In this document: positions 51,658 to 56,776 of the stretch, in pieces
How positions within the stretch are numbered: position 1 is the first letter of the stretch
How the letters are laid out: every line of letters starts with the position of its first letter
Assembly (NCBI RefSeq): GCF_003012815.1
Contig: NZ_PXYJ01000001.1
Span: 1 to 64,000, forward strand
Origin: Allosphingosinicella vermicomposti
GTDB lineage: Bacteria > Pseudomonadota > Alphaproteobacteria > Sphingomonadales > Sphingomonadaceae
DNA length: 64,000 bases
Direction: 5' to 3'
Notes under the pieces: model-generated
Told to the model about the DNA's origin: nothing
Seen by the model: the letters and a program-made list of their open reading frames with translations, nothing else
The model's database searches: none
Translations under genes and position numbers: made by a program

Positions 51658-52287
51658 ATGTCCAACATATTAATCATCAACAGCAGCGCGCATGGGTCGG
51701 AATCCGTGTCATCACGCCTGACCGGAGAATTTGCCGCGCGGGTCCAGGCTGCCAACCCTGGCACGACAATTACGATCCGCGATGTGGGCCGCGATCCGCT
51801 GCCGCACCTTGTTGCCGAAACGGTGGCCGGTATCCGCAACGAGGTGGCGGAAACGGAGGCGGAGCGGCAAACGCGTGCGATATCCGATGCGCTGATCGAA
51901 GAAATGCGGACCGCGGATCTGATCGTCATCGGCGCGCCGATGTACAATTTCGGCATCTCGTCGACCTTAAAGGCGTGGTTCGATTATGTGGTGCGCGCCC
52001 GGGTGACGTTCCGCTATACCGAAAATGGCCCGGAAGGTCTGATGACCGGCAAGCGCGTTATCGTTATCGAAAGCCGGGCGGGCGTCTATAGCGACGAGGC
52101 TTCGTCCGCCATGGACTTCCAAGAACCGCACCTGAAAGGGATGCTTGGGTTCATGGGTATGACGGATGTCGATTTCGTCCGGGCCGAGGGCCTTGCTTTT
52201 GGGGAGGACGTAGCGGAGGCAGCGATCCGTAGCGCGAACGAGACATTGGCTCGGCTTGCGGCGCGGGAGCTGGCATTGGCGGCTTGA
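51658..52287 (+). CDS. azoR: FMN-dependent NADH-azoreductase
   Basis: Flavodoxin-like quinone or azo-compound reductase of 209 residues. The FMN phosphate loop is INSSAHGSESVSSRL, followed by IVIGAPMYNFGISSTLKAWF with the second flavin motif and VIESRAGVYSD near the isoalloxazine. The start follows GGGAGTAAT. It is divergent from a LysR gene and followed about 100 bases later by a pirin gene, consistent with a quinone-stress unit. Confidence 0.93.
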   Translation: MSNILIINSSAHGSESVSSRLTGEFAARVQAANPGTTITIRDVGRDPLPHLVAETVAGIRNEVAETEAERQTRAISDALIEEMRTADLIVIGAPMYNFGISSTLKAWFDYVVRARVTFRYTENGPEGLMTGKRVIVIESRAGVYSDEASSAMDFQEPHLKGMLGFMGMTDVDFVRAEGLAFGEDVAEAAIRSANETLARLAARELALAA

Positions 52288-52337
52288 ATCCTGCTGATTC
52301 GGCGAAACCGGAGACTTTGGAACGAAGAAGCGCCTTT

Positions 52338-52373
52338 CCGTCACGACATTCCGGCTTTCGCCGTGACGACGGC
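52338..52373. repeat. Family D half-element
   Basis: CCGTCACGACATTCCGGCTTTCG with CGTGACGACGG: one arm of the repeat seen complete at 33980-34063. Lies between azoR and the pirin gene. Confidence 0.5.
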
Positions 52374-52390
52374 GGGCGAGGAGATATGAC

Positions 52391-53089
52391 ATGATCGACA
52401 TCCGTCCTTTCAACACGCTCGGCCACGCCAATCATGGCTGGCTCAATGCTCGCCATCATTTCTCCTTCTCAAATTATCACGATCCCGCCCGTATGGGCTG
52501 GGGCGCGATCCGGGTGTGGAATGATGACGAAATCGCGGCGCGCTCGGGCTTTCCGCCCCATCCGCATAGGGACATGGAGATCATCACCTATGTCCGCACC
52601 GGCGCCATCACCCACCAGGATTCGATGGGCAACAAGGGGCGGACCGGCGCGGGCGATGTGCAGGTGATGTCGGCAGGCACCGGCGTCCAGCATGCCGAAT
52701 ATAATCTGGAGGACGAGACGACGACGCTCTTCCAGATCTGGGTGCTGACCGACAGGCCGGGCGCCGAGCCGAGCTGGGGCGCAAAGCAATTCCCGAAAGG
52801 TGATCGCGCAGGCGCCTTCACCACGCTCGCCAGCGGTTTTGCCGAGGACGAAGAGGCGCTCAAGATCAACGCCGCCGCCCGCGTCATGGGCGCGACGCTG
52901 AACGCGGGCGAAAGCGCGACGCTTGGCCTCGATCCCGCGCGGCACACTTATCTTGTCGCGGTAAACGGCGCGATCGAAGTGAATGACGTCCGCGCCGAAG
53001 CGCGCGACGGTGTCGCGATCACCGGCGAAACCGGAATCGAAATCCGCGCGCTCGACGACACCGAGGTCGTGGTGGTCGACGCGCGTTAA
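52391..53089 (+). CDS. Pirin-family protein
   Basis: Bicupin of 232 residues of the YhaK/pirin type. The metal-binding histidines are seen in FPPHPHRDMEIITYV and in MSAGTGVQHAEYN; the N-terminus contains GWLNARHHFSFSNYHDP, characteristic of the family. Related proteins are quercetin dioxygenases or redox sensors. The start follows GGAGATATGAC. It is downstream of azoR and ends directly against the convergent three-repeat protein gene (adjacent stop codons, no gap). Confidence 0.92.
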   Translation: MIDIRPFNTLGHANHGWLNARHHFSFSNYHDPARMGWGAIRVWNDDEIAARSGFPPHPHRDMEIITYVRTGAITHQDSMGNKGRTGAGDVQVMSAGTGVQHAEYNLEDETTTLFQIWVLTDRPGAEPSWGAKQFPKGDRAGAFTTLASGFAEDEEALKINAAARVMGATLNAGESATLGLDPARHTYLVAVNGAIEVNDVRAEARDGVAITGETGIEIRALDDTEVVVVDAR

Positions 53090-54667
53090 TCAGAAGGATG
53101 AAGGTGGGCGCTTATCCCAGGCGCCGACCTTCATCCTTACCGCATTGGCAAGCGGCGCCACCTGTGGAAGCGCAAGGCAATTGGTGCTGCCATGCGCCAT
53201 CGCCGCCATACCTTGCCGATTTTTGACTATATATTCCGCGGAAAAGAGCGTGGTGCTATAATCGCGCGCATAGGTGCCGAAAGACGATTTCGCTTCATTC
53301 TTCGCGGTTTGATCGATCTGCCCCGCGTCGTAAAGGGCGTAAACCAGTGCCTTGATGGCGGCACGATCTCCACCGTCGCCTTGCGGAACCGAGAACCCGG
53401 CATCGGGAGGCGACCATTCGCGGTCCCGGTTGGACGGCGGTGCGAACCAGCGGCTTTTGGATTCGCCCAAATTGTAGGCGCTGTATATCAACGCGGAACA
53501 GAAGATGTTTCTGAACGCAACCGGGTGAGCGAGATAGCCGTCAGCCCGGTCGGGCCAGCCATTCACGTCCTCCGGCGCTTCCAACGGTCCTGCGGCCGAA
53601 GCGCCGGCGCTCTTTTCTATAAAGGGCGCCATGGTGGGGAGCGACGCACATTGAAGCATCGGTTCAGCCATCAAGTCTTCGGTCAGCCCCTCTTCAATCA
53701 AGGGGCGCACGGCATTTTCGGCAGCCCGGAAACTTGCGCGATAGCTTTCTATATCCGCTGCGCTCTTGAGCCCCAATTGCTTCAGCCCGGCGTCGAAAGT
53801 GCCCGCGACAGCCTTGCGGTAAGCTTCTCGAACAGATGCTTCACCGGGTTCCAGTTTTGCCTGGTAGCGATGCAGAGTGTCCGCAGCGCCTGCCACGGGC
53901 GCAACGCCGGGGTCGGGCATCAATCCAAACCGCTCCGTGCCCGTGGTATAGGCTATCGCTGCGCAGGTGAGATGGCGATAAGCGTTTGGTTGATAAAGAT
54001 AGCCCAAAAGGGGGGCGGGTAGCCGGCCGCGCTTGATGCTCGCTGATGTCGGGATTTCCATTCCCGGCACCGTTTTTTTAAGCCGCGCCTCTAGGCGCGT
54101 TTTTAGGGGCGCAATCTCGGAAAGGTCGAAACAGCGCGACCTGTCGATCTTCATCGCTTGAAGGCCCACTCCGCCTCTGACTTGCTTGAGAGCGAGAAGG
54201 GACATCTTTTCCTGAGCGAATTCGAATTCCTTCTGGTCGAAAGACTTTGGTCCCTTGGCCGTTTTCGAGAGAGCGTGATGCATCCCGTAATCCGGCAGCG
54301 ATCGGGCAGGGCCATCCGCCTGCTTGAGGAGATCTTTGCTGACGCGAGCATAAGTATCGCGCTCTTCAGCGTCGGCAGGCGATATGCGGGGTTTCAACGG
54401 ACCCAGGGGAATGAGCGTGCCGCCGTTGATTTCATGGGCAAAATAAAGGCGGACTGTCGCATCAAGATAAGCCGCGCAGCGGAGCAATTGCCCGACCTTC
54501 GGATCGTTCAGATAATAATCACGGCTGTAATGCGCGTTGGGGTTCGTTTCGATTTCCCCATGGTAACGACGTCCGTTATCCCGGCTGCTTGCTACAGTCT
54601 GTTGCACCGGCGCCGACAGGCATGCCGCGAGCATTAAGGCATATACCGCGCGTGTCGAAATCTTCAT
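53090..54667 (-). CDS. Unrecognised secreted protein of three cysteine-framed repeats
   Basis: A 525-residue protein that I cannot assign to a family. It has a signal peptide (about residues 1-26, MKISTRAVYALMLAACLSAP). The mature part is built of three repeats at about 52-190, 223-350 and 378-508. Each begins with YL, P three residues later, and a Cys exactly 12 after the Tyr (C64, C235, C390), in the pattern C-[AS]-A; each ends in C-x2-L-x2-[IMV]-A-P-[LF] (C179, C340, C497). The interior is helical and divergent. These are the only mature cysteines, so three disulfides, one per repeat, are likely. ATG at 54667 is used; the open frame to 54706 is longer. No partner genes are visible. Confidence 0.85.
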   Translation of the reverse strand: MKISTRAVYALMLAACLSAPVQQTVASSRDNGRRYHGEIETNPNAHYSRDYYLNDPKVGQLLRCAAYLDATVRLYFAHEINGGTLIPLGPLKPRISPADAEERDTYARVSKDLLKQADGPARSLPDYGMHHALSKTAKGPKSFDQKEFEFAQEKMSLLALKQVRGGVGLQAMKIDRSRCFDLSEIAPLKTRLEARLKKTVPGMEIPTSASIKRGRLPAPLLGYLYQPNAYRHLTCAAIAYTTGTERFGLMPDPGVAPVAGAADTLHRYQAKLEPGEASVREAYRKAVAGTFDAGLKQLGLKSAADIESYRASFRAAENAVRPLIEEGLTEDLMAEPMLQCASLPTMAPFIEKSAGASAAGPLEAPEDVNGWPDRADGYLAHPVAFRNIFCSALIYSAYNLGESKSRWFAPPSNRDREWSPPDAGFSVPQGDGGDRAAIKALVYALYDAGQIDQTAKNEAKSSFGTYARDYSTTLFSAEYIVKNRQGMAAMAHGSTNCLALPQVAPLANAVRMKVGAWDKRPPSSF

Positions 54668-54902
54668 CTTAGCCCCCCGGCTCATGGTTGCTGACTGGTA
54701 ACGCATGACTATGGTGAAGCCAACAGACGATGTGAACCGGACCCGGCCGGTTCAGAGCAGTGGAACGGTTCATCGATTAGCCATAACGTTCTGCCGCAGC
54801 TCTTGTCTCGCGAGGCTAAGTCGTTGTGAAGGGTTAATGAAACTCAGCCGATCATGGGCGCGTTGGTTTTCCAGCATGTCCACAAGTTTAAAGGGATCGG
54901 TT

Positions 54903-55205
54903 ATGCGTAAGCTTTCACTCGCAATCGCCGCAGCGTCGATGACGTTGCCGATGGCTCTCCCCGTCGCGCCGGCTATGGCTCATGACGGTTATTATAAGGG
55001 CAAGACCTGGAAAGACAGCCGCGGCCGCTGGCGCTGCAAGCGTTCGAACGGCACGACCGGCATGTTGATCGGCGGTGCCGCAGGGGCTCTTGCCGGCCGC
55101 GCGATCGATACGCGTGGCGAACGCGCCACGGGTACCATTCTCGGCGCCGCCGCCGGTGCGCTTCTCGGTCGCGAAGTCGAGCGTGGCCGTTCGCGCTGCC
55201 GCTAA
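54903..55205 (+). CDS. Glycine-zipper surface-antigen-like protein
   Basis: A 100-residue protein with a signal peptide of about 26 residues (ending APAMAHD), a basic Cys-containing segment SRGRWRCKRSNGTTG, and a glycine-zipper 2TM region, MLIGGAAGALAGRAID followed by GTILGAAAGALLGREVE. It resembles Rickettsia 17-kDa-antigen-type zippers but has no clear lipobox. The upstream ORF readings give no signal peptide, so the ATG at 54903 is preferred. The region 54668-54902 between it and the divergent repeat protein holds only promoters. Confidence 0.82.
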   Translation: MRKLSLAIAAASMTLPMALPVAPAMAHDGYYKGKTWKDSRGRWRCKRSNGTTGMLIGGAAGALAGRAIDTRGERATGTILGAAAGALLGREVERGRSRCR

Positions 55206-55222
55206 CATCCTTATATGCAAAC

Positions 55223-55262
55223 ATAAGGGCCGGATTGCCAAGCAGGGCAGTCCGGCCCTTAT
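55223..55262 (+). terminator. Terminator-like hairpin after the glycine-zipper gene
   Basis: ATAAGGGCCGGA and TCCGGCCCTTAT arms with TGCC/GGGCA continuing the stem, about 16 bp and a 5-base loop. The trailing T-run is weak (CTTGTC). Confidence 0.65.
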
Positions 55263-55307
55263 CTTGTCTGGCGTAATCTGGCGCCTGACGCTACAGCGCA
55301 AGGCCTG

Positions 55308-55685
55308 ATGTTTCATTATCTTCTCGTTATGACGGGCGGCGCGATCGGGGCGGGCTTCCGCTATCATCTCGGCCGTGTTGCGTTCCATCACATGGGCCCC
55401 GATTTCCCATGGGGGACGTGGATCGCGAACCTGCTCGGCGGCCTGCTTATGGGCGTGCTTGCGGGCGTGCTGCTGAAGGAAGGCACGACCGGCGAACCGC
55501 TTCGCCTGTTCCTCGGCACCGGGGTGCTCGGTGGCTTCACGACCTTCTCGGCCTTCAGTCTTGAAAGCACCAACATGCTTCAGCGCGGCGACTACGGCCT
55601 TGCGGGCGCCTATATGATTTCATCGGTGGCGGGATCTATCCTGATGCTGCTGGCCGGATTGTGGCTGGTGAGGGTGAGCGCATGA
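55308..55685 (+). CDS. crcB: Fluoride channel
   Basis: Fluc-family fluoride exporter of 125 residues with four transmembrane helices. Signature regions are GGAIGAGFRYHLGR, GTWIANLLGGLLMG (pore Asn) and GVLGGFTTFSAFSLE (the Phe-box and Na+ site). It works as a dual-topology dimer. First gene of a six-gene run; its stop overlaps the pseudouridine synthase start (ATGA). No fluoride riboswitch was recognised in the short upstream region. Confidence 0.94.
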   Translation: MFHYLLVMTGGAIGAGFRYHLGRVAFHHMGPDFPWGTWIANLLGGLLMGVLAGVLLKEGTTGEPLRLFLGTGVLGGFTTFSAFSLESTNMLQRGDYGLAGAYMISSVAGSILMLLAGLWLVRVSA

Positions 55686-56776
55686 GCGAGAGCGATCAGG
55701 TTCGCCAGTTCACGGTTTCGGCCGACGATGACGGAATTCGCCTCGACCGCTGGTTCAAGCGGAATTTGGCGGACGCGAGCTTCAACCTCGTATCGCGTTG
55801 GGCGCGGACGGGACAGCTTCGGGTCGACGGCAAGCGCGCCGCGCCGGGCGACCGGATCGAGGCGGGGCAGATCATCCGCGTGCCCCCGGCAGAGGCTCCC
55901 GCGCCCGATAGCCGCCCGAAACGGCCGCAGCAGAAGAAGCTCAGCGAAGACGAAATCGCTTATGTGAAGGAGATGGCGATCCATCGCGATCCCCAGGCGA
56001 TCGTCATCAACAAGCCGCCCGGCCTCGCGACGCAGGGCGGCACGAAGACCAACGTCCATCTCGATGGCCTGCTGCATGGTCTTGTCGAAGAGGATGAGGC
56101 GCGGCCGAAGCTCGTCCACCGGCTCGACAAGGATACGTCGGGTGTGCTGCTCGTCGCGCGCACACCGCGTGCCGCCGCTTTCTTTTCCAAGGCCTTTTCC
56201 GGCCGGACGGCGCGCAAAATCTATTGGGCGCTGGTCGTCGGCGTCCCGGAAATCCGCGACGGCTATATCGACCTTCCCATCGCCAAGCAGCCTGGCACCG
56301 GTGGCGAGAAGATGCATGTCGACGAGGAAGAGGGCCTGCCGTCCCGCACCCGGTATCGCGTGATCGAACGGGCGGGCAATCGCGCGGCCTGGGTGGAGCT
56401 TCAGCCGCACACCGGCCGGACGCACCAGCTTCGCGTGCATATGGCGGCGATCGGCCATCCGATCGTCGGCGACGGCAAATATGGCGGACAGGACGCCTTC
56501 CTCACGGGCGCGATCAGTCGCAAGCTCCACCTCCACGCGCGGCGTCTGCGCATCGATCATCCCGACGGCGGGCGGATCGACGTGACGGCGGAACTGCCGG
56601 ACCATTTCGACGAGAGCTTGCAGGCTTTGGGTTTCGACATTGCGGACGGCGATCTTCCCATCGACGAAATACCCTATGGCCAGACGCCGGAAGGCCGCGA
56701 GAAGAAGGCGCGCGCCGAAGCCAAGGCGCGCCGCAAATCGCGCAAGGGAGAGAGGCGCGGCCGGGGGCGGAGCTGA
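55682..56776 (+). CDS. rluC: RluA-family pseudouridine synthase, RluC-like
   Basis: 23S rRNA pseudouridine synthase of 364 residues. An N-terminal S4 domain (IRLDRWFKRNLADASFNLV, GQLRVDGKRAAPGDRI) is followed by the catalytic domain with PPGLATQGG, HRLDKDTSGVLLVART (catalytic Asp) and QPHTGRTHQLRVHMA. S4 plus catalytic domain fits RluC or RluD; RluC is my guess. It has a basic lysine/arginine-rich tail. ATG at 55682 overlaps the crcB stop by 4 bases. Confidence 0.9.
   Translation: MSESDQVRQFTVSADDDGIRLDRWFKRNLADASFNLVSRWARTGQLRVDGKRAAPGDRIEAGQIIRVPPAEAPAPDSRPKRPQQKKLSEDEIAYVKEMAIHRDPQAIVINKPPGLATQGGTKTNVHLDGLLHGLVEEDEARPKLVHRLDKDTSGVLLVARTPRAAAFFSKAFSGRTARKIYWALVVGVPEIRDGYIDLPIAKQPGTGGEKMHVDEEEGLPSRTRYRVIERAGNRAAWVELQPHTGRTHQLRVHMAAIGHPIVGDGKYGGQDAFLTGAISRKLHLHARRLRIDHPDGGRIDVTAELPDHFDESLQALGFDIADGDLPIDEIPYGQTPEGREKKARAEAKARRKSRKGERRGRGRS

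Follow-up and report, generated by a model that had tools for sequence, protein, structure and literature searches.

A putative exported protein of three homologous repeats, each with an invariant cysteine pair, and its few relatives in apparent sphingomonads

Sel1-like/Hcp cysteine-rich repeat proteins are secreted tandem helical repeats with one disulfide per repeat, in which repeats of ~36–40 residues carry closely spaced cysteines. The protein described here is encoded in a 64,000-nucleotide stretch of the genome of Allosphingosinicella vermicomposti, which we call the window. It differs from these proteins in scale: the 14 repeats collected from it and its relatives, as cut, span 133–162 residues with cysteines 94–116 residues apart, and Pfam gives no Sel1 match. 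Another point of comparison is Saro_1314 of Novosphingobium aromaticivorans, an exported, uncharacterised protein with a demonstrated Cys99–Cys132 disulfide (PMC3608174). Compared by description, its cysteines are 33 residues apart, unlike the 94–116 found here. For the window protein, we favour an exported, all-helical three-domain architecture with one structural disulfide per domain and a binding or scaffold role, to which as a whole we assign a probability of roughly 0.55.

The gene and its three repeats

A 525-residue product with seven cysteines, one of them in the leader, had been predicted from the letters of the window. The minus-strand ORF at 53090–54667 indeed translates to 525 aa, with Cys at positions 16, 64, 179, 235, 340, 390 and 497. 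Searches turned up four relatives: one in G002, another genome of the same genus as the window genome (G000), two in G599 and one in G694, both of which belong to another genus of the same family. The proteins are 525 aa long in G000, 523 in G002, 523 and 315 in G599 and 512 in G694. The main features of the window gene are the following.

53090..54667, minus: gene of the 525-aa three-repeat protein, product probably exported (ORF translation and codon-level comparison with G002)
54587..54667, minus: signal-like leader, residues 1–27 (hydropathy; cleavage site placed by eye)
54077..54559, minus: repeat d1, residues 37–197, cysteines 64 and 179 (alignment, profiles; domain model with pLDDT 70.8)
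53612..54034, minus: repeat d2, residues 212–352, cysteines 235 and 340 (alignment, profiles)
53129..53566, minus: repeat d3, residues 368–513, cysteines 390 and 497 (alignment, profiles)
54476..54478, minus: C64 codon, first cysteine of d1 (column invariant in 14/14 repeats)
54131..54133, minus: C179 codon, second cysteine of d1 (column invariant in 14/14 repeats)
53963..53965, minus: C235 codon, first cysteine of d2 (column invariant in 14/14 repeats)
53648..53650, minus: C340 codon, second cysteine of d2 (column invariant in 14/14 repeats)
53498..53500, minus: C390 codon, first cysteine of d3 (column invariant in 14/14 repeats)
53177..53179, minus: C497 codon, second cysteine of d3 (column invariant in 14/14 repeats)

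The stretch 53090–54667 is a real gene under codon-level constraint. Over 506 aligned codons, identity to the G002 relative is 0.64, 0.71 and 0.38 at codon positions 1, 2 and 3, respectively, and a simple method gives dN 0.42 and dS 3.8, of which only the direction is meaningful as dS is saturated. An in-frame ATG lies at 54706, 13 codons upstream of that at 54667; we favour the latter as the start because a GGGGGG, identified by eye, precedes it by five bases. The GC3 of the window gene is 0.63, compared with 0.71–0.80 for eight of nine measured neighbours, the ninth, a glycine-zipper gene, being at 0.64. The family genes of G002, G599 and G694 have GC3 values of 0.75–0.83.

According to the original prediction, the protein is made of three degenerate repeats, each framed by two cysteines within recognisable motifs, and all of these motifs are present. 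The first cysteines, C64, C235 and C390, follow Y52, Y223 and Y378, each with Leu next to it, by 12 residues, and they precede AA, AA and SA, respectively. The second cysteines open the three predicted C-x2-L-x2-[IMV]-A-P-[LF] segments, namely CFDLSEIAPL (C179), CASLPTMAPF (C340) and CLALPQVAPL (C497). Across the family, the Tyr 12 residues ahead of the first cysteine is found in 14/14 repeats; besides the cysteines, a Tyr and a Phe column are invariant (14/14) and Arg occupies two columns in 13/14. Among the relatives, the second-cysteine motif is less strictly kept, e.g. in d1 of G599 and d2 of G694.

Shuffle and profile tests indicate that the three repeats, which frame one cysteine pair apiece (C64/C179, C235/C340 and C390/C497), are homologous. 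Within the window protein, the d2–d3 Smith–Waterman score is 74 (shuffled mean 28.6), which none of 500 shuffles reaches, and the d1–d3 score of 47 is equalled by 2 of 500. The d1–d2 score of 41, with 21 of 500 shuffles as good, is weak alone, and it is what would speak for a chance three-fold pattern in a single non-repeating fold. We nevertheless consider chance to have a negligible probability. When the relatives are included, profile–profile comparisons of d1, d2 and d3 give probabilities of 97.3–98.4% and E values of 1.6e-11 to 7.4e-15; a relative with two repeats exists; and 28/28 cysteines are in register.

Of 28 comparisons in which a profile built from a single position was run on repeats of the other positions, 27 beat every shuffle. 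With the d1 profile, nine d2 and d3 repeats reached 17.6–51.0 bits (best of 1800 shuffles, 9.4); with the d3 profile, ten other-position repeats reached 13.0–39.5 bits (best of 2000 shuffles, 11.0); and with the d2 profile, eight repeats out of nine reached 14.1–45.2 bits (best of 1800 shuffles, 8.3). The one exception is d1 of G694, which obtained 6.8 bits with the d2 profile, under the best shuffles. This test is independent in scoring and not in sampling, as the relatives were found and cut using mixed-repeat profiles. Both cysteines are present in all 14 repeats of the five proteins; homologues lacking such paired conservation would have spoken against the original prediction, which this result supports. 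There are no cysteines beyond the paired ones in the five mature proteins (6, 6, 6, 6 and 4).

Distribution and history of the family

The G694 protein and the 523-aa G599 protein have three repeats each, and the 315-aa G599 protein has two, which correspond to d1 and d2 by their grouping in the repeat tree. No third repeat was found within the 18 kb fetched around its gene, whose position is as follows.

L116:9042-9986: gene of the two-repeat G599 member, adjoining a gene of the Beta-lactamase family (Pfam) and a gene read as coding for a small exported glycine-rich protein

The search for single-domain relatives that had been proposed yielded a two-repeat relative and no single-domain one. 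The existence of the two-repeat protein indicates, at the sequence level, that the repeat unit is modular.

The window genome has one copy of the gene. The single protein was run against all 26 genomes of the genus in full, and part of these genomes also entered the profile searches. The single-protein search returned rows in three genomes, of which those in G000 and G002 are real. The third, in G011 (E 0.001), was dropped as spurious, as it aligns 62 query residues inside a 735-aa frame read as an S9-type peptidase. A two-sequence profile run against 397 genomes of the family retrieved only G000 and G002. With a six-repeat profile, the 397 family genomes gave G000, G002 and weak rows in 37 genomes, which we did not accept, and 396 genomes of the order gave G000, G002, a weak row in G063 and the two real genes of G599. 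An eleven-repeat profile, run on 295 genomes from the genus that includes G599, detected G599, G694 and one weak row. Lastly, a fourteen-repeat profile found the window genome only among 172 genomes of the class; among 249 of the family, it found G000, G002 and weak rows in two further genomes. These genome counts are lower bounds, as a limited number of candidates was scored per genome, and the searches overlap in genomes. No relatives were detected in collections of genome contigs, viral contigs and plasmids, the latter queried with the window and G599 proteins; the contig scans rest on a few short peptides, such that distant relatives can be missed, and records of the window genome itself or of ones close to it may be missing from them.

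Several other candidates were set aside. The weak rows of the six-repeat family search make up 39 of its 45 rows (37 genomes, best E 0.0032), and the 28 of these 39 that were re-scored with that profile reached 17.4 bits at best. Among the approximately ten weak-row alignments listed, one cysteine is aligned in L007, L010, L011 and L033, and both in none. G063, which recurred in the search of the order, was dropped as weak, and a G708 row (E 0.0026) was dropped as a single stretch of a 640-aa frame. Rows in G169 and G210 are short stretches, one of which (L131) has a segment like that of the first cysteine, and none has the second cysteine. There may be a very divergent relative among these dropped rows. 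As far as these sequence searches go, the repeat family appears to be small and rare, in what look like sphingomonads.

The G002 relative is 50–51% identical to the window protein and is found at the same locus, tail to tail with a pirin gene. In 19 genus genomes besides G002, neither the full-length nor the six-repeat profile found a relative at the site behind pirin, the best non-family E values there being 1.1 and 0.21, respectively. The sequence that follows pirin varies among genomes (frames viewed in 11 of the 20 stretches, G002 being one of the 20).

This distribution bears on the main functional rival, which is that the protein is an immunity or inhibitor protein neutralising a hostile effector or hydrolase that reaches the periplasm. 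Such a role would explain both scarcity and fast divergence. The family is patchy, being present in 2 of 26 genomes of the genus after removal of the spurious row and in 2 of 295 of the other genus after removal of the weak row, and identity between the window genome and G002 is 51% for this protein, as opposed to 88% for the adjacent pirin. Small exported disulfide proteins are also found among immunity proteins. Nevertheless, immunity proteins are usually single domains; here, the protein is large and the triplication old. Moreover, Pfam identified no effector or secretion part among ten neighbour proteins (seven in the window and one near each of three relatives), and PADLOC 2.0 gave no match for the two proteins tested. 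We thus regard immunity as improbable. Taken by itself, the rarity of the family is as compatible with a dispensable or arms-race role as it is with a scaffold.

The age of the triplication emerges from a maximum-likelihood tree of the repeats, which groups them by position, with supports of 99/97 for d1, 98/95 for d2 and 87/88 for d3. This grouping needs two changes, compared with a shuffled mean of 6.9, and none of 200 shuffles is as low. Since the repeats group by position across species, the triplication predates the parting of the G000, G002, G599 and G694 lineages. By this tree, d1, d2 and d3 have been kept distinct since before the host lineages parted.

Export, fold and proposed role

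The leader of the window protein has a hydrophobic stretch near residues 8–19 and, judged by eye, a possible cleavage site after A26 or S27. Hydropathy analyses showed a basic-then-hydrophobic leader in 5/5 family proteins, and beyond residue 35 no 19-residue stretch averages more than 1.18 on the Kyte–Doolittle scale in any of the five. The five leaders look like signal peptides, and the family proteins are probably exported.

The leader of the window copy also contains a cysteine (C16, codon 54620–54622, minus strand), and the L13-A14-A15-C16 sequence is lipobox-like in this copy only. The protein of the window species could accordingly be a lipoprotein, with C16 lipidated and the three domains hanging from the membrane into the periplasm or outside. 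In keeping with this idea, the leader is short and basic, and LAAC16 matches the lipobox pattern. However, the leader cysteine is absent from 4/4 relatives, and a signal peptidase I-like site is seen by eye in 5/5 leaders. We consider a lipoprotein rather unlikely; lipidation of C16, if it occurs, would change the location of the window copy.

For the fold, a full-length model from the two-sequence alignment reached a pLDDT of 37, and the fold searches were made with a single domain instead. A model of d1 from the six-repeat alignment (pLDDT 70.8, pTM 0.69) is mainly helical, with helices at 20–41, 61–86, 109–128, 132–137 and 150–160 in model numbering, in which C64 and C179 are residues 28 and 143. 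Along the chain, a long helix bearing C64 leads into a small strand hairpin; two more helices come next, the first of them long, then a short one that stops ahead of C179, and the last helix lies beyond this cysteine. Foldseek searches with this model gave 32 rows in the PDB and 46 in viral models at E values up to 10, none of them at E ≤0.001. The top rows are ferritin-like four-helix bundles (mini-bacterioferritin 9qq4, Dps), with E values of 1.1 or worse, a best probability of 0.18 and TM scores of about 0.23–0.33 for a model of moderate quality; as to metal ligands, the strongly conserved columns of the family have no His or Glu. At a pLDDT of 71, the absent Foldseek match is weak evidence for a new fold.

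The original prediction had recognised no domain family, and the libraries bear this out. The window protein has no match in Pfam-A or NCBIfam 20.0 at E values up to 10. For the five members in the same libraries and range, DUF4070 alone was hit, by one member at E 0.24, which is not credible. PHROGs v4 gave no credible match for two proteins (a hit at E 0.5 to a PHROG of unknown function), nor did PADLOC, and the PDB sequences yielded no credible relative, with best E values of 0.075 for the single protein and 1.6 for the fourteen-repeat profile. In a literature search judged on titles and the starts of abstracts, no description of this repeat family was recognised. By the literature search and the family libraries, the triple-domain family is apparently undescribed.

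One disulfide per domain, as had been proposed together with the triple-domain architecture, is very probable, based on the paired cysteines of 14/14 repeats and the homology of the repeats. DsbB scores over its curated cut-off in 4/4 host genomes, as well as in 6 of 14 control genomes, which speaks to capability only. Because a signal-like leader and invariant paired cysteines occur together with an encoded DsbB, structural disulfides are the natural reading. As to precedent, a sphingomonad periplasm makes bonds of this kind: among 17 two-cysteine proteins identified in the Novosphingobium aromaticivorans periplasmic fraction, all but two formed a disulfide (PMC3608174).

The mechanism that we propose would start with a Sec-type signal peptide carrying the protein out of the cytoplasm, after which the periplasmic Dsb machinery would close one disulfide inside each domain. 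One end of the bond would lie in the first long helix, where the first cysteine comes 12 residues beyond the invariant Tyr; the other would lie in the segment ahead of the last helix, where the second cysteine typically stands in a C-x2-L-P-x2-A-P context. The bond would thereby staple together the two ends of a helical bundle with middle loops of varying length, in a structural and not a catalytic capacity. Each domain probably offers a surface of its own, since the three have had distinct identities from before the lineages parted. The protein would most likely serve in binding or as a scaffold, in a periplasmic or outer-membrane-facing position, its partner being pure inference.

An enzyme with an active site in or between the domains would be the opposite case. 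The invariant Tyr and the two columns with Arg at 13/14 could indeed be functional. Nevertheless, there are no Asp, Glu, His or Ser residues in columns common to at least 9 of the 14 repeats, a cross-repeat count that would miss a site used by one domain only, and the five members have no enzyme-family match, or any other in Pfam and NCBIfam beyond the DUF4070 hit. We therefore view an enzyme as very unlikely, and favour binding or scaffolding over catalysis because the widely shared columns hold no catalytic-looking set. On its own, a non-enzymatic binding or scaffold role is an evenly balanced call.

A bolder proposal is held tentatively, with the odds leaning against it: the domain would represent a new helical fold stapled end to end by its disulfide, and the protein would be a triple-domain exported recognition protein of sphingomonads, the roles of whose domains split before the genera did and which most lineages have lost or never received. 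More soberly, this is a defined and testable family absent from the searched libraries. Its domains are clearly delimited, its cysteine pairs are invariant and a natural version with two domains is at hand for dissection; its scarcity in the searched genomes offers a handle on the cell-envelope needs of a few species. As long as no function is assigned, its broader importance is modest, since such bacteria commonly have exported proteins that are uncharacterised. The family deserves a name and a solved structure, but does not so far amount to evidence for a new mechanism.

Genomic setting

The gene and the pirin gene of the window meet tail to tail, their stop codons separated by zero bases, and an inverted repeat is found at this junction.

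53094..53138, no strand assigned: 18-nt inverted repeat, 94% complementary (RNA fold -33.3 kcal/mol, z -4.27)

The hairpin sits in the last codons of the gene, across the C-terminal tail, and the G002 relative is devoid of the last residues of this tail. Perhaps it ends transcription between the convergent pirin and repeat-protein genes; no T run follows it. No striking flanking repeats were found in a check of 52000–56000 for a mobile-element origin.

In G599 and G694, the gene follows rplS (L19 by Pfam in G599, a near-identical sequence in G694). The pirin sites of G000 and G002 and the rplS sites of G599 and G694 have no neighbour in common, and the setting thus gives no functional lead. 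A DUF2383 gene adjoins the three-repeat gene in G694 (L126:9386-10000).

On the other side of the window gene, the neighbours are a divergent gene for a glycine-zipper protein, then crcB and a pseudouridine synthase gene. The closest named plasmid match to this pseudouridine synthase is from Sphingomonas parapaucimobilis (74%), where the gene is also beside crcB, in keeping with a sphingomonad host. Just past the glycine-zipper gene, a 20-nt inverted repeat with 90% complementarity (55220–55265) is perhaps a terminator.
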